Assembly (NCBI GenBank): GCA_945882315.1
Contig: CAMCWB010000004.1
Coordinates: 1 to 64,000, forward strand
Source of the DNA: Bauldia litoralis
GTDB lineage: Bacteria > Pseudomonadota > Alphaproteobacteria > Rhizobiales > Kaistiaceae
Direction: 5' to 3'
Length of the DNA stretch: 64,000 bases
The notes under the pieces were generated by a model. The model was given only the letters and a program-made list of their open reading frames with translations, searched no databases and was not told the origin of the DNA. The translations under genes were made by a program, and so were the position numbers. Shown in pieces: positions 2,455 through 51,739 of the stretch (positions within the stretch are counted from its first letter, which is position 1; each line of letters begins with the position of its first letter).

Positions 2455-3897
2455 TTACCGGGCGCTCCTGATAATCTGGATATCCAGTTCGCGGATCTTC
2501 TTGCGCAGCGTATTGCGGTTCACGCCGAGAAGCTCGGCTGCCTTGATCTGGTTGCCCCTGGTCGATGCCAAGGCAGCGCTGATCAGCGGATTTTCGACCT
2601 CGCGCAGGATGCGGTGATAGAGGCCCGGCGGCGGCAGGCCGTCACCGAAGCTCTGGAAGTAGCTCGACAGATGACGTTCGACTGAGCCTTGCAGGCTTTC
2701 GTCGCTGCCGTTGTCGACCGGCGCCAGCGCCATGGCGGGCTGGTCCAGCTCGGCCTCGATGATGTTCTCCGAGATCGTTTCCTGCGGATAGAGCGCGGCC
2801 AGGCGACGGATCAGGTTCTCTAACTCGCGGACATTGCCCGGCCAGCGATAGCGCTTGAGCTGCTCGTAAGCGGCCGGCTCGATGCGCTTGGACGGAAGCC
2901 CCTCCTTCTCGACTATGGTGAAGAAGTGGCGGACGAGGTCGGGGATGTCCTCGCTTCTCTCGCGCAGCGCCGGCAGGCGGATCGGCACGACATTCAGCCG
3001 GAAGAACAGATCCTCGCGGAACAGGCCCTGATTGATCAGGATGCGAAGGTCCTTGTTGGTCGCGGCGATGATGCGGACATCGGTCTTGATCGCCGTGCGG
3101 CCGCCGACGGTGGTGTACTCGCCCTGCTGGAGGACGCGCAGCAGGCGCGTCTGCGCCTCCATCGGCATGTCGCCGATCTCGTCCAGGAACAGCGTCCCGC
3201 CCTCGGCCTGCTCGAAGCGACCGGCGCTGCGGGCCTGAGCGCCGGTGAAGGCGCCTTTCTCATGGCCGAAGAGCTCGGCCTCGATCAGGTCGCGCGGGAT
3301 GGCGGCCATGTTGATCGGCACGAATGGGCCGTTGCGGCGCTTGCCATAGTCATGCAGCGCGCGGGCGACGAGTTCCTTGCCGGTGCCGGACTCGCCGGCG
3401 ATCATCACCGTCAGGTCGGTCTGCATGAGGCGCGCGAGGACGCGATAAATCTCCTGCATGGCCGGCGAGCGGCCGACCAGCGGGATGTTGTCGCCGGGCG
3501 GTTCGGGCGGCCCGTCGGCGCGGCGCGATTTGGGCTCTGCCAGCGCCCGGCCGACGATGGCGATCAGTTCCTTGAGGTCGAAGGGCTTGGGCAGATACTC
3601 GTAGGCGCCGCGCTCCGACGCGCGGATTGCCGTCATGAAAGTGTTCTGGGCGCTCATGACGACAATCGGCAATTCCGGCCGCACCCGCTTGATACGCGGC
3701 AGCAGATCGAAGGCGTTCTCGTCGGGCATGACGACGTCGGTGATCACGAGATCGCCGTCGCCCTGGCTGATCCAGCGCCAGAGCGTCGCCGCATTCGACG
3801 TCAGGCGGACCGTATAGCCGGCGCGCGACAGCGCCTGGTTGAGGACGGTCCGGATGGCAGCATCGTCGTCCGCCACAAGAATGTTGCCCACGGGCAT
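2455..3897 (-). CDS. ntrC: Nitrogen regulation response regulator NtrC (sigma-54 activator)
   Basis: The 480-residue NtrC has three parts. The receiver domain (1-120) has phospho-acceptor Asp54 in ITDVVMPDE and the Lys of PKPFD. The AAA+ sigma-54 interaction domain (about 140-375) has Walker A GESGTGKE and the sigma-54 contact loop GAFTGA. The C-terminal Fis-type helix-turn-helix is [20 protein letters not shown]. Phosphorylated NtrC activates RpoN-dependent nitrogen-scavenging genes. The ATG at 3897 lies one base after the ntrB stop, and the receiver domain begins right there, so the longer open frame upstream is not used. It is the last gene of a dusB-ntrB-ntrC operon. The presence of GAFTGA predicts real sigma-54 activation. 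Confidence 0.97.
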
Positions 3898-42458: not shown

Positions 42459-43517
42459 TTAGAGCGCGACGGGCTGGCCGATCTTGGCCGACTTGTCGGC
42501 GGCCATGGTCAGTGCCAGCACGGTGCGGGCCTGCTCGCCCGTGCAGAGGCCGACGCCGCCCATGCCGAGGGCATGACGGATGAAGGCGTCCGTCTCTTCC
42601 TTCATCGGGCCGAAGAACTCGCCGAGCAGGAAATCGCCGGGCATCGCCGAGCCGAGGAAAGCGACGTCGACATTGTATTGCGGCGTGTAGGGGCACGGGA
42701 TCGGCTCAGCGGGAACCAGCACGACATCGCGATGCGCGTCGTCGATGTTGAGCGAGCCGCCCGTCCCCTGGAGGTCGATCTCCATCGTCGCCGTGTAGGC
42801 CGGCCAATGGCGGGGCTGCAGCCAGCTCGTGCCGATCGTGGCGACGCTGCCGTCGTCGAAGGTGACGATCATCCACTGGCTGTCGTCGCGATTGTAGGGC
42901 GCGAAGACCTTGCGCGTCGCCTTGGCGTAGACCTCGACGGGCTTCTTGCCTTCCATGTACCAGAGGATCAAATCGACCATGTAGGTGCCGGTATTGATCG
43001 ACGGCGTCGTGTTGGGCGAGCGGCTGGCGACGGCCTCGCCGACGGCGCGCGTCACGTAGATCTTGCCGAGCGCCATGACGATGTCGCCGAGCTGGCCGGT
43101 GACGGCAGCGTGCTTGGCCTGGAGGAAGCGCTTGCGGTAGCGCTGGGTATAACCGATGAAGACGCCGGCGCCGTTGCCGCCCGCCTTGGCGATGATGTCG
43201 TCGGCCTCGTCGAGGGTGAGCACGAAGGGCTTCTCGATCAGGACCGGCTTGCCGAGCTCCGCGGCGAGCGCGGCGGCGGCGTGGTGGTTCTCCTCGTCCG
43301 TGGAGACGATGACCGCGCCGACGCGATCGTCCGAGATCGCCTTGCGGAAATCGGCGGTGGCGAGGTCGGCCTTGGCGGATTTCGCCAGCTTGTCGAGCTT
43401 TTCCGGAACGATGTCGCAGACGGCGAGGAAATTCACCTGCGGGATCTGATGGCAGGAATGCGCCCTGAGGGTTCCGATACCCCCTGCGCCGATGACGGCA
43501 ACGCCGGTTTCCTTCAT
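42459..43517 (-). CDS. Gfo/Idh/MocA-family NAD(P)-dependent oxidoreductase
   Basis: This 352-residue sugar-type dehydrogenase has the Rossmann motif GAGGIGTLRAH (about 10-20), the EKPF catalytic-lysine motif GKPVLIEKPFVLTLDEAD (about 88), and a C-terminal alpha/beta domain with TGTYMVDLILWYMEG. The substrate cannot be read from the sequence; family members oxidise inositols, glucose derivatives and related polyols. It stands alone between the MaoC gene (convergent) and lexA (divergent), with no transporter genes nearby. Confidence 0.9.
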   Translation of the reverse strand: MKETGVAVIGAGGIGTLRAHSCHQIPQVNFLAVCDIVPEKLDKLAKSAKADLATADFRKAISDDRVGAVIVSTDEENHHAAAALAAELGKPVLIEKPFVLTLDEADDIIAKAGGNGAGVFIGYTQRYRKRFLQAKHAAVTGQLGDIVMALGKIYVTRAVGEAVASRSPNTTPSINTGTYMVDLILWYMEGKKPVEVYAKATRKVFAPYNRDDSQWMIVTFDDGSVATIGTSWLQPRHWPAYTATMEIDLQGTGGSLNIDDAHRDVVLVPAEPIPCPYTPQYNVDVAFLGSAMPGDFLLGEFFGPMKEETDAFIRHALGMGGVGLCTGEQARTVLALTMAADKSAKIGQPVAL

Positions 43518-43686
43518 TTTGTCGTTTCTCTCTCGTGGGTTGGCAATTTTGTAAGCGCGCGACTTTGCAAGAGACCGGCCAGAGAGGCAACCGCAAGCGA
43601 GGTAACGACTTCGCGGGCTTACAGAAATTCGTGATCAGGCCTCTCATTGCGACCTTTGAGGCTTTACGGAATTTTTAGTCCTTGTG

Positions 43687-44466: not shown

Positions 44467-46706
44467 AGCCGGGCGCCGCTATTGAAGCCCGGCATCCAGG
44501 GCCGCGGGACCGCCGGATAGGCGGTCTCGATGTGATAGGCTACCTTCCCTTCCGGACCCAGCTCACGATAGAGCGCGTGCGCGCCGCGGCGCAGGAGCTT
44601 GTCGCGATCGATGATGATTGCTGTTCCCGCGCAGTAGGGCGGCGCTTCGAAGCGTGAGACGATGATCGCGACGCGCCTGCAGTCTTCGGCGAAGGCATCG
44701 GGTTCGAGGACAAGCGCCAGCGTCTTTCCCTCCTCCTTCGTCGGCGCGATGCAGCCGAGCGGATCGCAGGCGACGCCGGCGGCGATATCCGGTGCATCGG
44801 GCTTCCGCGCATCGGCGTCGGCACGCAGCCAGTTCTCGATGGCGAAGCTCTCGCCCCTGCCGCCGGCAATCGAGTAGCGGCCCGACGCACCGCGGATGGC
44901 GGTCGTGGTCCCGTCCGCATCGATCAATATGTCAGGCGATGGCGCCGAGATCGCGACCGGTATGGGGGCCAGCATCGGAACGAGGCCGAGCAGGCGCCAG
45001 CGCTCGCGCCACAGGGCGAGCCAGAGAAAGCCGCCGACGATCAGGAGAAGCGACAGCCCCGGGATCATGCGGACGCCGCCCGCCTCGCCGGACCATGCCG
45101 TCGTCCAAAGCGCGACGGCGATCATCCAGTCGATGCCCCAGTTCATGACGTAGAGCGGGATGGATTCGAGCCCGAAAGGCATCGCCAGCACGGTGACCGC
45201 GACCATCGGCATGACGAGGATGCCGACCGCTGGCGTTGCCAGGACATTGGCGAGAAGCGTCAGCGGCGCGACGCGCTGGAAATGAAAGATGCCGAAGGGC
45301 GCGGTGGCGAGGCCGGCGACCAGCGAGGTGACGACGAGCCCGGTCATCGTGCGCCAGACGCGGCCGGTCCAACCCGGGTCATGGCGATCGGTCAGGCGCA
45401 GCCGCCGATCGGCGCGCGCCGAGATTTCCTCATAGGCGGCGACGAGCGCGATGGTCGCGGCGAAGGACATCTGGAAGCTGGCGCTCATCAGGCTTTCCGG
45501 CGTGACGACGAGGATGACGAGAGCGGCGAGCGCGACATTGCGGAGCGTGATGGCGCGGCGATCGAGAAGCACGGCGACGAACATGATGGCGAGCATCAGA
45601 TAAGCGCGCTGGGTCGCGACCTCGGCCCCGGAAAGGCCGAGGTAGAAGGTGGCGACGGCAAGCCCGCCGAGGGCCGCCCATTTCTTGATGGGCCGCCGGA
45701 GCGCAAGATCCGGCGACAGCGCGAATAGCGCCCGCAGGATCGCGAAGGCCGAGCCGGCGATCAGCACCATGTGCAGGCCGGAGATCGACAGGATGTGGCC
45801 GAGGCCAGAGGTACGCATCGCCTCCTGCGTCGCCTCCGAGATGCCGCCCTGATCGCCCATGATCAGTGCCGCGGCGATGCGGCCGTGATCGCCGGGAAGC
45901 GCTGCGGTGACGCGCCGGCGGATCGTTTCGCGGAGATGGGCGAGCGGCATGGCCAGACGGATCGAGAGCGGCGGCGCGCCGATATCGGCTGGCCGGGCGG
46001 CGCCGTAGGCGAAGCCGACCGCGCCGATCCGCTCGTAATAGGCGGCGCGCCCGAAATCATAACCACCGGGGAGGACAGGCCCGCTCGGCGGCTGCAGGCG
46101 GGCGGTGACGGCGAGTGCGTCGCCGACCGCGATCGCATCGGCCTGGGAGCGGATGGTGACGCGGACGAGATCGGGCTGTCCGTCATTCGGCATCTCTTCC
46201 ATCGACTGGACGCGCAACACGATGCGGACGCCGCCGCCATTCGACATGCCGCGCTCGGCGACCCAGCCGGTGACGACCGTCGTGATCTCGCGAGCGAGCT
46301 TCGGTGCCGCAACCCAGTCGGTGCGGAGCTTGGTCATTGTGACGCCGGCGAGGATGAAGACGAGCACCATCGCGAGGCGGAAGAGGCCGATACGGTTGCG
46401 GCAGAGGATGGCGACGGCGATCCCGGCGGCGAGGAGGCCCGCCAGTGCGATGGCGGAAGGTTCGCGGGGCAGGATGAAATAGAGGAGGATGCCGATCGAG
46501 AAGCAGACCGGCAGCCACAGGAAACCGCGGCCGGCTTCCAGCTCGCGGCCGAGGGAATCCGCCGCGGCAAGGCCGGTCCGTCCGGCGCGCGCCGCGAGCC
46601 GCGCAACGATGCCCGCCGAACGTGCTTCGAAGGCGGCCTGCGGCGTTGCTGCCGTGTCGACCGGAGCGTCCTCCGTCAGCAGATGCTCGCCCTGCCGCTC
46701 GCCCAT
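44460..46706 (-). CDS. comEC: ComEC/Rec2-family DNA-uptake membrane channel
   Basis: This 748-residue polytopic protein has an N-terminal extension, an OB-like soluble region (about 130-260) and the competence domain from about 270, with [10 protein letters not shown] and many membrane helices. It transports single-stranded DNA across the inner membrane in naturally competent bacteria. The C-terminal 150 residues do not show the HxHxDH motif of the beta-lactamase-like domain of some ComEC proteins, so this appears to be the form without that nuclease. It is convergent with lexA. Confidence 0.88.
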
Positions 46707-46766
46707 CCCATCCCCTCGCCCGCCCGAAGGCTATAGGATCGAAAGACCGGCGTCAGGCCTCATCGA

Positions 46767-46782
46767 TGGCCCGGAATTTGCG
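46767..46782 (+). promoter_or_regulatory. Sigma-54 (-24/-12) promoter upstream of the ThDP-enzyme gene
   Basis: TGGCCCGGAATTTGCG has the invariant GG (46768-46769) and GC (46780-46781) exactly ten bases apart and matches the TGGCACG-N4-TTGC consensus with one change. A start about 12 bases downstream would give a leader of about 30 bases to the GTG at 46823. The identical 16 bases recur at 48734. Confidence 0.7.
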
Positions 46783-46822
46783 AACTGCACGTGCCCCGAC
46801 ACTCAGGCGGCAGGAGAGCCAG

Positions 46823-48580
46823 GTGGACGACAAAATAAACGATGCAGACGCGGCGCCGAGCTTCGCCGAGCAGCCGGCCGGCGCGCTCGCTAATCGCCCG
46901 GCTTACGGCAGCGACCTGGTCGTCGATTTCCTGCGCGGCCGCGACATTCCCTATGTCGCCCTGAACCCCGGCGCGAGCTTCCGCGGCCTGCATGACAGCC
47001 TGGTCAATTATGGCGGCAACCAGAATCCCAAAATGCTCCTCTGCCTGCATGAGGAGAGCGCCGTGGCCATCGCGCATGGCTATGCCAAGGTGACCGGCCG
47101 GGCGATGGCCGTGGCGGTGCATGCCAATATCGGGCTGATGCATGCGACCATGGCGATCTTCAACGCCTGGTGCGATCGGATGCCGATGCTGGTGCTCGGC
47201 GGCAGCGGGCCGGCCGATGCCGCGCGGCGGCGGCCGTGGATCGAATGGATCCACAGCGCCCGCGACCAGGCCGCGATGATCCGCAATTATGTGAAATGGG
47301 ACGACGAGCCGCGCTCGGCCAGGGCCACGCAGGAATCCCTCGCCCGCGCCCTCTGGCAGAGCGAGACGATGCCGATGGGGCCGGTCTATGTGGCGCTCGA
47401 TTCCGAGGTACAGGAAAGTCCCCTGCCCGACGGCATGTCCTTCAGCGATACGGCGCGCTTCATGCCGGCGGTCGAGGCCGGCGCCAGCGACGTCGAGATC
47501 GCGCTGCTTTCCGACAAACTCGCTGCTGCCAAGAGGCCGCTGATCCTCAGTGGCCGCGCCTCGCGTTCGGAAGACGGGTGGCGAGCGCGCGTCGCGCTGG
47601 CCGAGCATTTCAACGCACAGGTGATCACCGATCCGCGCCTCGGCGCGAGCTTCCCGACCGACCACGCGCTCTTTGCCGGCGGCACCGCCAAGCCCTTGCC
47701 GAAGGTCGTGGAAGCGGTGCGCGGCGCCGACCTCATCGTCAGCCTCGACGTTACCGATCTCGGAGGTTTCCTGTCGATGTGCTGCGGCGACGAATTGCCG
47801 GAGGCCGCGATCGTCAACATCTCGCTGGACCATCGCCTGCACAATGGCTGGAGCATGGATCACATGCCGCTGCCGCCGGTCGACATGCATATCTCAGCCT
47901 CGCCCGACAAGGCGGTGCCGGCGCTCAACGCCAGACTTGGCATCGCTCCCGGGCAAGGGAAGATCGATGCGCCGGTCGTCGCCGGCGAGCGAGCGCAGGG
48001 CACCGGCCTGCCGGGCCTCGTCGATCTTGCTGCCGAACTGCGCTTCGCGGTCGCCGGGCGCGCGGTATCGCTGCTGCATGTGCCGATCGCCTGGCGGCAA
48101 TCCTATTGGGATTACCGGCATCCGCTGGATTTCATCGGCAACGAAGCGGGCGGCGGCCTCGGCTCCGGGCCGGGTCTCTCGGTCGGCGCGGCGCTGGCGC
48201 TGAAGGGCAGTGGAAGGCTGCCGATCGGCATCTGCGGCGACGGCGACTACCTGATGGGCGTGACGGCGCTGTGGACCGCCGCGCATTACCGCATCCCGAT
48301 GATGATCATCGTTTCCAACAACTCGTCCTACTTCAACGACGAACTGCATCAGGAGATGGTGGCGAAGGACCGCGCGCGGCCGGTGGCCAATAAATGGATC
48401 GGCCAGAAGCTAATCGACCCCGAGCCGGACCTCGTCGGCTTTGCCAAGGCACAGGGCGCCACCGGCATCGGTCCGGTTGCCGAAATCACCGATCTCGCCG
48501 CAGCCTATGCGGAAGCGATTGCGGTCGTCGATGCCGGCGGTGTCGCCGTCGTCGACGTGCGGATCAAGCCCGGCTACTGA
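46823..48580 (+). CDS. ThDP-dependent enzyme of the acetolactate synthase/benzoylformate decarboxylase superfamily
   Basis: This 585-residue, three-domain ThDP enzyme shows the cofactor-activating Glu in LCLHEESAVAIAHGYAKVTGR (about residue 77), a central domain with AAAKRPLILSGRASR, and the ThDP-diphosphate site GICGDGDYLMGVTALW (about 471) ending in IIVSNNSSYFN. FAD-specific features of acetolactate synthase are not evident. The substrate is unknown; 2-oxo acid decarboxylation or carboligation is likely. GTG 46823 is preceded by GGAG and by a sigma-54 promoter. It lies in a block, together with an orphan binding protein, that interrupts the usual comEC-gltX neighbourhood. Confidence 0.85.
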   Translation: MDDKINDADAAPSFAEQPAGALANRPAYGSDLVVDFLRGRDIPYVALNPGASFRGLHDSLVNYGGNQNPKMLLCLHEESAVAIAHGYAKVTGRAMAVAVHANIGLMHATMAIFNAWCDRMPMLVLGGSGPADAARRRPWIEWIHSARDQAAMIRNYVKWDDEPRSARATQESLARALWQSETMPMGPVYVALDSEVQESPLPDGMSFSDTARFMPAVEAGASDVEIALLSDKLAAAKRPLILSGRASRSEDGWRARVALAEHFNAQVITDPRLGASFPTDHALFAGGTAKPLPKVVEAVRGADLIVSLDVTDLGGFLSMCCGDELPEAAIVNISLDHRLHNGWSMDHMPLPPVDMHISASPDKAVPALNARLGIAPGQGKIDAPVVAGERAQGTGLPGLVDLAAELRFAVAGRAVSLLHVPIAWRQSYWDYRHPLDFIGNEAGGGLGSGPGLSVGAALALKGSGRLPIGICGDGDYLMGVTALWTAAHYRIPMMIIVSNNSSYFNDELHQEMVAKDRARPVANKWIGQKLIDPEPDLVGFAKAQGATGIGPVAEITDLAAAYAEAIAVVDAGGVAVVDVRIKPGY

Positions 48581-48733
48581 TCAGGCGGGCAAGTTGGCCG
48601 GGATTGCTCAAAGCCGAAATAAGCTGCATGTTATCCCATAGTGTGTTCACAGCTTAGGCGTTTTTCCTTGGCGATCCGCAGAAAACATTCGTTCGGCACT
48701 GCGCTCATTGCCACCATTGAAGCAAATTTAATG

Positions 48734-48749
48734 TGGCCCGGAATTTGCG
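48734..48749 (+). promoter_or_regulatory. Sigma-54 (-24/-12) promoter upstream of the binding-protein gene
   Basis: The same TGGCCCGGAATTTGCG as at 46767, with GG at 48735-48736 and GC at 48747-48748 ten bases apart. It lies in the otherwise featureless 312-base gap 48581-48892 and predicts a 5' leader of about 130 bases to the ATG at 48893. Confidence 0.7.
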
Positions 48750-48892
48750 GAGAGGCTCGACGTGAACGCGCCTCGTAGACCAGAACAGCCTCGACGGGGC
48801 ATCCGCCTCCCCGGATTCCTTCGCCGGACACCTGCTTGCGCATGGCAACGTCAACGTTCGCTTTTTGAACAGGTTACCAACGGAGCTTCGTT

Positions 48893-49972
48893 ATGCCCTC
48901 CCCAATGAATATCGCCCAAAGACGCCTTGCCTTCGGCATTGCGGCGGCAGCCGTGACTATCCTCGCCCTGACGCCTGCTCAGGCGCAGGAACTCCAGACG
49001 ATCAACGTGATGACGTCGAACGACCAGTCCTGCAGCCCCTATCCGCAGATATCGGCGGATGAGTTCGGCTTCTTTGCCAAGGAAGGCCTCAAGGTCAACC
49101 TTCTGCCCTCGGAGACTTCAATTCCCTATATCGCCTTCCTCGCCAATGGCGACGCCGACATCACGATGATGGACGCCGGCATGATTTTCCAGGCGGTCAC
49201 CGCCGGGCAGCCGCTCTCGGCGGTCTATGAAGCCTATCAGCGCGCCGGTGACGGATTGGTCGTTCTTTCCGACAGCGGTATCAAATCGGTCGCCGACCTC
49301 AAGGGCAAGACGATCGGCATGGCGTCTGACCGCGATCAGCTGACCACCATCCTGGCCCTCAGCACGGTCGGCATGGAAATCTCGGAAGTTACCACCGTCG
49401 TCGTCGGCCAGCCGGGGCCGGTGCTTGTCGATGCTCTGACCAAGGGCACGATCCAGGCCTATGCCGCCGCCAATTCCGAATTTGCCGCGCTCACGGCGGC
49501 AGGCGTGGCAGTGACCAACATCACCCCGGTCGAAGTCTCTTCCGTGCCGGGCAACACATTTACGGTATGGGGGCCAACCAAGGAGGAGAAGCGACCGCTC
49601 TTCGAGAAATTCCTCCGCGCCTGGGCGATGGGACAGCATGCCGGCATCATGGACATCAAGGCCGTGATGTCCGCCTGCAAGAAGCGCATTCCCGAGCAGT
49701 GGGAAAAGCCCGGCCGCGGCGAGACCGTCGTCACCAACAGCGTCACCAACACCCAGGTCCGCCGCACCGTGAAGTATGGCGAACCGCAGCGCGACGTCTG
49801 GGAAGGCATCCAGCCCCCCTACGTCAAGTTCGGTGAAATCCCCGCCGTGATCGAAGTCGACAAGTTCCTCGACTGGTCCTTCATCGACGCCGCGAACAAC
49901 TTCACCACCGACGAGGTGAAGGAAGGCGTGAAGGCGTGGAAGGAAGCCAACAAGGACGCCCTCATCAACTAG
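48893..49972 (+). CDS. ABC-type substrate-binding protein, NMT1/NitT-TauT-like
   Basis: This 359-residue periplasmic binding protein has a signal peptide (about 1-31, ending AQAQE) and an NMT1/SsuA-like fold: DEFGFFAKEGLKVNL, AFLANGDADITMMDAG, LKGKTIGMASDRDQ and GPVLVDALTKGTIQAY. Such receptors bind sulfonates, nitrate, pyrimidine precursors or aromatic acids; the ligand here is unknown. No ABC permease or ATPase gene is next to it, so it is an orphan in this window. It has its own sigma-54 promoter and a strong terminator. Confidence 0.88.
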   Translation: MPSPMNIAQRRLAFGIAAAAVTILALTPAQAQELQTINVMTSNDQSCSPYPQISADEFGFFAKEGLKVNLLPSETSIPYIAFLANGDADITMMDAGMIFQAVTAGQPLSAVYEAYQRAGDGLVVLSDSGIKSVADLKGKTIGMASDRDQLTTILALSTVGMEISEVTTVVVGQPGPVLVDALTKGTIQAYAAANSEFAALTAAGVAVTNITPVEVSSVPGNTFTVWGPTKEEKRPLFEKFLRAWAMGQHAGIMDIKAVMSACKKRIPEQWEKPGRGETVVTNSVTNTQVRRTVKYGEPQRDVWEGIQPPYVKFGEIPAVIEVDKFLDWSFIDAANNFTTDEVKEGVKAWKEANKDALIN

Positions 49973-49997
49973 GGTCGTCCGCTTCCATGAAATGAAA

Positions 49998-50032
49998 CGA
50001 AGCCCGGGCAGTACCCGGGCTTCGGCTTTTTT
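49998..50032 (+). terminator. Rho-independent terminator after the binding-protein gene
   Basis: Perfect 11-base arms (49998-50008, 50014-50024) with a five-base loop are followed by six T (50027-50032). It starts 26 bases after the stop and closes the binding-protein transcript. Confidence 0.9.
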
Positions 50033-50047
50033 GAGCGGGGATTACGC

Positions 50048-51739
<1,692 letters not shown>

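Follow-up and report, generated by a model that had tools for sequence, protein, structure and literature searches.

A 16-mer, TGGCCCGGAATTTGCG, precedes two neighbouring genes of Bauldia litoralis, one for a ThDP-dependent enzyme and one for an orphan NMT1/THI5-like periplasmic binding protein, and is found in exactly two places genome-wide (3.98 Mb, 162 contigs; the window, i.e., the whole stretch of DNA analysed, comprises 64 kb, C4:1-64000). The element is conserved in the leaders of close paralogs of the binding protein and keeps a single orientation, and the genome encodes a paralogous family of such proteins, RpoN, sigma-54 activators and one closely related permease pair. Sigma-54 promoters are the best single reading of the element, at slightly under an even chance, and co-regulation of the two genes is likelier than that reading.

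Table 1. Features of the window discussed in the text.
Feature	Position	Strand	Remarks
AAA+ domain of NtrC, candidate enhancer-binding activator	2980..3480	-	
16-mer, copy 1	46767..46782	+	putative -24/-12 promoter of the ThDP gene
ThDP-dependent enzyme, 585 aa	46823..48580	+	benzoylformate decarboxylase / acetolactate synthase superfamily; Pfam TPP_enzyme N, M, C above cut-off
16-mer, copy 2	48734..48749	+	putative -24/-12 promoter of the binding-protein gene; paralog leaders C34a and C36 hold versions with 2 mismatches
Orphan NMT1/THI5-like periplasmic binding protein, 359 aa	48893..49972	+	Pfam NMT1 (PF09084) 89.9 bits, cut-off 20.5; one of 27 paralogous loci
Terminator-like hairpin, binding-protein gene / convergent gene	49998..50024	both	2 found, shuffles give 2.6

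The repeated 16-mer and its two genes

A divergent comEC-like gene starts at 46706, and the 116 bp that separate it from the GTG start codon of the ThDP gene contain the first copy; the second begins 159 bp upstream of the ATG of the binding-protein gene. Both copies read T-GG-N10-GC-G. An alternative in-frame ATG at 46766 would place the first copy within the ThDP reading frame; the GTG at 46823 is favoured because its ribosome-binding site is better and the resulting protein resembles three relatives more closely in the length of its N-terminus. The preliminary description had reported identical 16 bases before both plus-strand genes and nothing else in common between the two leaders; the former was confirmed by searches of the window and the genome, and the latter agrees with a blastn comparison. 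A possible 15-codon leader reading frame (48731-48778) encloses the second copy, probably by chance, and a search of the window for riboswitches and structured RNAs brought no Rfam family to its gathering score.

The pair itself is mildly unusual. In 60 simulations with order-2 Markov copies of the window, direct pairs of exact 16-mers no more than 2.5 kb apart averaged 0.53 per simulated window, and the exact repeat alone is weak, not decisive, support; it gains its support from the paralogs. Within the window, no third place was found within 3 mismatches, and since shuffled windows contained 1.08 such places on average (two or more in 27 of 100), mismatch-tolerant counting in the window is uninformative by itself. 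The scan for the same 16-mer before other genes, proposed in the preliminary description, gave no further exact copy but three places with 2 mismatches, two of which fall within the leaders of C34a and C36, both close paralogs; a reversed-pattern control yielded five places within 2 mismatches. The exact 16-mer is absent from all 27 other genomes of the family that were searched.

The ThDP enzyme carries the GDG...NN cofactor motif and HEE. Among solved structures, benzoylformate decarboxylases are closest to it (best E 2.2e-28), and its score against the benzoylformate decarboxylase equivalog NF005485 is 167.3 bits, below the cut-off of 493. On one side of the pair is the divergent comEC-like gene and on the other a tRNA synthetase gene in convergent orientation (both named by eye), and no terminator-like hairpin was found between the ThDP and binding-protein genes; gene calls came partly from an in-house codon-score script. 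ThDP genes also adjoin binding-protein genes at C80 and, divergently, at C33. At C80 the gene order is RidA-like, M24 creatinase-like, ornithine-cyclodeaminase family, ThDP, binding protein; C34a adjoins an M24 enzyme, and C36 an ornithine-cyclodeaminase-family enzyme and an amidohydrolase. These neighbouring enzymes point to nitrogen-containing small molecules; the binding protein itself falls into no curated substrate family, and its score against the SsuA profile TIGR01728 is 61.8 bits, with a cut-off of 163.5.

Two further observations concern the surroundings. Near C34b, a split sulfopyruvate/phosphonopyruvate decarboxylase-like pair (L064:17548-18650; alpha and beta, below curated cut-offs) adds a further ThDP-type enzyme to the surroundings of the family. 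In the window, a Gfo/Idh/MocA oxidoreductase gene (42459-43517, minus strand) shares 94.5% identity across about 1120 bp with a gene at C33 (L074:10326-11444), which lies directly downstream of the binding-protein copy C33b; this is a case of a relocated duplicate.

The binding-protein family and its possible transport partners

The binding protein has 33 matches in its own genome, 27 of which, at E below 1e-19, are 43-100% identical and spread over 21 contigs. Two loci, C34b (L064:12641-13711) and C45 (L076:714-1787), are broken by internal stops, which is decay within the expansion, and C158 and the second C8 copy are incomplete. In the 27 other genomes of the family that were searched, nothing of similar closeness was present; the best match there reached E 3.2e-29 and was 32% identical across a portion of the protein. 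A match at E <= 1e-60 was present in 14 of 397 genomes drawn from the order, the own genome included, and the other 13 hold one each (with up to five candidates scored per genome, this is a lower bound for two of the 13). Of the 41 proteins placed in a tree, the 22 own copies that were usable lie close together (three label changes; none of 500 shuffles was as low). They do not form one clade, as four OCS116/TMED25-type proteins and one other are placed among them; C34a, C36, C4 and C80a form one clade (100/99).

In three paralog pairs (window 48893-48985/C80a, C3/C33b and C6b/C33c), the DNA of the mature part is 84-94% identical, the leaders have no blastn match except for a 34-nt block in C6b/C33c, and the signal peptides differ by eye. 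It looks as if promoter and signal peptide had been exchanged as a unit. End-gap-free pairwise alignment gave no useful identities for leaders or signal peptides, and blastn took its place. The neighbours of L130, an OCS116-type locus, resemble those of C6a (CoA-transferase, enoyl-CoA hydratase and MocA-type oxidoreductase, by eye), so that C6a may be the ancestral site of the family.

That the binding protein is an orphan, as stated in the preliminary description, holds insofar as its gene has no adjacent ATPase or permease and no ABC ATPase pattern occurs in the 64-kb window; it is not a lone protein, however, but one of 27 paralogous loci. Outside homolog loci were not found with a single-protein query, whereas an alignment query of contigs yielded 64. 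An ABC ATPase pattern was detected at 45 of these named loci, in 44 cases upstream, on the same strand and approximately 1-3 kb off. The other 19 include all 11 OCS116/TMED25-type loci (L130-L139, L178), among them L137 with almost no upstream DNA to read, and several that are ended by contig ends. Among the stretches around the own copies, 4 of 21 hold an ATPase-pattern frame, none in the upstream same-strand arrangement.

When the genome was queried with one permease of the homologous locus L145, one close pair was found, C73:4935-5753 (44%) and C73:5850-6629 (53%), the next best match having 33%. This pair sits behind an ATPase-pattern frame, and one copy of the binding protein lies about 10 kb further on C73. 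Since this is the only closely related ATPase/permease set in the genome, the orphan binding proteins may share the C73 translocator, by analogy with the orphan binding proteins of TTT systems, for which it was proposed that one membrane part serves several binding proteins (PMC5994714).

Recurrence of the element and its possible readings

Two of 23 other paralog leaders, C34a and C36, contain the 16-mer with at most 2 mismatches, and none of 400 Markov sets had a single such leader. The C80b leader has a copy with 3 mismatches that lacks the -12 GC (Markov mean, 0.04 leaders at 3 or fewer; 400 sets), and in the closest paralog, C80a, the best leader match is no better than 6 mismatches. When the C4, C36 and C34a leaders were aligned, the 16-mer block was the best conserved 16-column window (12 of 16 columns invariant; mean 3.3). 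A wider core, GGAMYTTGC, occurs on the sense strand of 5 of 24 leaders (C4, C34a, C36, C6b and C32) and on the opposite strand of none; in Markov sets its mean was 0.124, with two or more in 7 and three in none of 1000, for a pattern that was defined only after the leaders had been seen. Both leader counts took in 24 of the 27 loci (C21, C8b and C158 were omitted, for reasons of start or contig end); for C34b the counts refer to an internal start, its true leader being read separately, and C33c was scored as lacking the full core (GGACTTTGT). The core lies 50-180 bases upstream of the called start codons, a position that, together with the sense-only orientation, suits a promoter. Co-regulation, which the preliminary description had drawn from the exact pair, is poorly founded on the pair but gains from the conservation of the element in two paralog leaders.

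In the 13 of 64 outside binding-protein leaders that were looked at, the core was missing within 600 bp upstream. GGAMTTTGCG occurs at 26 places genome-wide against 18 for a reversed control, which is no clear enrichment; 4 of the 26 are in the studied leaders, 20 of the 22 others were looked at (C93 and C111 were left out), and 18 of these 20 lie inside open frames of at least 273 codons, which in G+C-rich DNA is suggestive only. A simple EM de novo motif search of 27 leaders returned mainly ribosome-binding and start-codon regions, and a palindrome reading of the element was rejected, as no consistent dyad was seen by eye across the copies.

The sigma-54 reading starts from the GG-N10-GC spacing noted in the preliminary description, which agrees with the RpoN consensus TGGCACG-N4-TTGCW given in PMC3538637. 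The 16-mer matches 10 of the 11 fixed bases of TGGCACG-N4-TTGC, and the binding-protein copy 10 of 12 consensus positions; GG-N10-GC is present in both window copies, C34a and C36. A genome-wide scan with the strict pattern TGGCMCG-N4-TTGC gave 7 places against 2 for the reversed control. Besides the two window copies, the 7 comprise one site before an amtB-like gene and four more, of which at least one falls within a reading frame. With an approximate sigma-54 matrix, which places them barely above background, both window sites score 13.5 bits and rank second and third among 229 leaders, while the best three Markov scores average 13.2, 11.9 and 11.2 bits and the reversed matrix gives 12.3; the site of the amtB-like gene scores 18.6 bits. 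If sigma-54 is used, transcription would be predicted to start at approximately 46793 and 48760.

The required machinery is encoded in the genome. RpoN is found on contig C81 (PF04552, 231.3 bits, cut-off 22.8), and GAFTGA, a defining feature of sigma-54 activators (PMC12316311), is carried by NtrC in the window and by response regulators on contigs C44 and C2. It is absent from NtrX (C53), as was also reported for Caulobacter (PMC10274813). NtrC had been named as a candidate activator, and its identity is borne out (TIGR01818, 714.7 bits, cut-off 558.6). None of the four clear activators bears a ligand-sensing name; three weak PF00158 matches lie outside this set. In a search for activator sites upstream, NtrC-type sites did not rise above shuffles at the window genes or at the amtB-like gene. 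No site with at least 9 consensus matches was found in the 420 bp upstream of three ThDP relatives (49-50% identity).

The proposal of sigma-54 promoters is supported as regards spacing, rpoN and activators, but GG-N10-GC is not the whole signal. The -24 GG is kept in C4, C34a, C36, the ThDP copy and C33b (a 4-mismatch match) and absent from C6b and C32, which have the full core, and from C33c, which has most of it; furthermore, GGA is conserved inside the N4 stretch, where sigma-54 requires nothing. Such conservation beyond the need of sigma-54, persisting without the -24 GG, would be expected of an ordinary regulator's binding site, e.g., that of a FadR-type GntR repressor, beside an RpoD promoter; the sigma-54 look of four copies would then be coincidental, and the genes would be co-regulated without RpoN. 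We regard this as a serious possibility, if not a probable one. C6b and C33c share, as the sole blastn match between their leaders, the 34-nt block with most of the core, which contains the near-dyad GTCYA-TAATT-TGGAC and a -10-like hexamer, and TATAAT in C33c and CATAAT in C6b overlap the would-be -24 box (read by eye). In addition, FCD-type GntR genes adjoin C36 and C34b and lie one gene off C21 (the profile search took in part of the neighbours). On the other hand, the element keeps one orientation in all five leaders and before the ThDP gene, which a palindromic operator would not. By eye, no dyad recurs consistently in the sites of C4, C34a and C36, and the window pair has what look like comEC and tRNA synthetase genes, not regulators, on its flanks.

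It is improbable that the element is inherited noise, with the C4, C34a and C36 leaders keeping the repeat by common descent and the ThDP copy arising by chance or functionless local copying. The number of exact pairs expected per shuffled window would allow this, the C3 and C54 leaders share another exact 16-mer with an equal E-value, and a direct repeat around one gene could be an insertion scar. Yet the remainder of the leaders has diverged more than the 16-mer block, no Markov set matched the observed leader numbers, and the chance of a match with at most 2 mismatches in the 116-bp leader is about 3e-5 (our own estimate, assuming equal base use). An ECF-type promoter with GGAAC, GGAAT or GGACT as its -35 element is very hard to credit, as the conserved core does begin GGAA-like but CGTT, CGTC or CGTA follows at 14-19 bases in none of 7 copies.

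Several other candidate signals were examined and set aside. Sigma-54-like sites within 4.5 kb upstream of the 64 homologs numbered 36 against 2 for the reversed control, but 20 of the 36 share a single location in the ATPase frame, some 2.1 kb upstream. A high sigma-54-like score before the window oxidoreductase gene (43566-43581) was discarded, as the spacing differs in the near-identical C33 copy, and a simple sigma-70 scan for RpoD promoters found none from 46600 to 50100 (expected 0.6), a result that speaks for the sigma-54 reading. A separate sigma-54-like site, TGGCCCGCGCTTTGC, is located in L127 (C34:1301-1315, minus strand), 72 bp upstream of an ORF that by eye seems to encode a membrane segment and may be a sensor gene.

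A proposed uptake system and known relatives

In the model that we infer, the 16-mer would be a functional, orientation-dependent promoter element in a subset of lineage-specific orphan NMT1-type genes, which has also been placed before the neighbouring ThDP gene. The window copies would act as sigma-54 -24/-12 promoters fired by a GAFTGA activator, either NtrC or the C44 or C2 response regulators; with both genes under sigma-54 and one such activator, enzyme and binding protein would be switched on together. The binding protein would hand its ligand to the single closely related ABC translocator on C73, and the substrate of the ThDP enzyme would be either this ligand or a keto acid to which it gives rise. 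The proposal as a whole is tentative and falls a little short of being probable.

A wider version, which we consider unlikely although worth stating, is a lineage-restricted scavenging network in which some 27 orphan binding proteins of the ABC type would feed one translocator, many of them being encoded next to different catabolic genes. A subset of them and the ThDP gene would form a regulon under GGAMYTTGC, with or without the -24 GG, which would be either a sigma-54 promoter with relaxed requirements or a promoter of an undescribed kind; the family would evolve by exchange of promoter and signal peptide while the ligand-binding part is kept. If the orphans dock on one translocator, the copy number of binding proteins and not the number of transporters would set the diet of the bacterium, and the common element would offer a handle on which binding proteins are co-expressed and whether nitrogen supply is the signal. 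Literature searches on expansions of NMT1 proteins and on the sharing of translocators brought up no account of this case.

Compared with the RpoN -24/-12 promoters described in PMC3538637, the element has the same GG-N10-GC spacing and TTGC -12 box, and the window copies and C34a have the TGGC -24 box; the 16-mer has C for A at position 5 of that consensus and G for W after the GC. It is unlike RpoN promoters in the GGA conserved within N4, in the paralogs with the core but without the -24 box, and in that an upstream activator site was not found. NMT1/SsuA-type ABC operons of other Alphaproteobacteria, such as L145 of Palleronia pelagia, encode a homologous binding protein (42% identical in the case of L145) with an ATPase gene and two permease-like genes upstream of it, all of which the window locus lacks. 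The system as a whole resembles the known TTT expansions, but in an ABC-type family. Orphan TTT binding proteins have expanded in Bordetella and, with 434 genes, in Rhodoplanes sp. Z2-YC6860 (PMC5994714), and here, as there, numerous paralogous orphan periplasmic binding proteins far outnumber the membrane parts. In contrast to the TTT expansions, the 27 loci described here belong to an NMT1/SsuA-like family whose relatives are mostly found in ABC operons, and a promoter-like element is common to a subset of the family.
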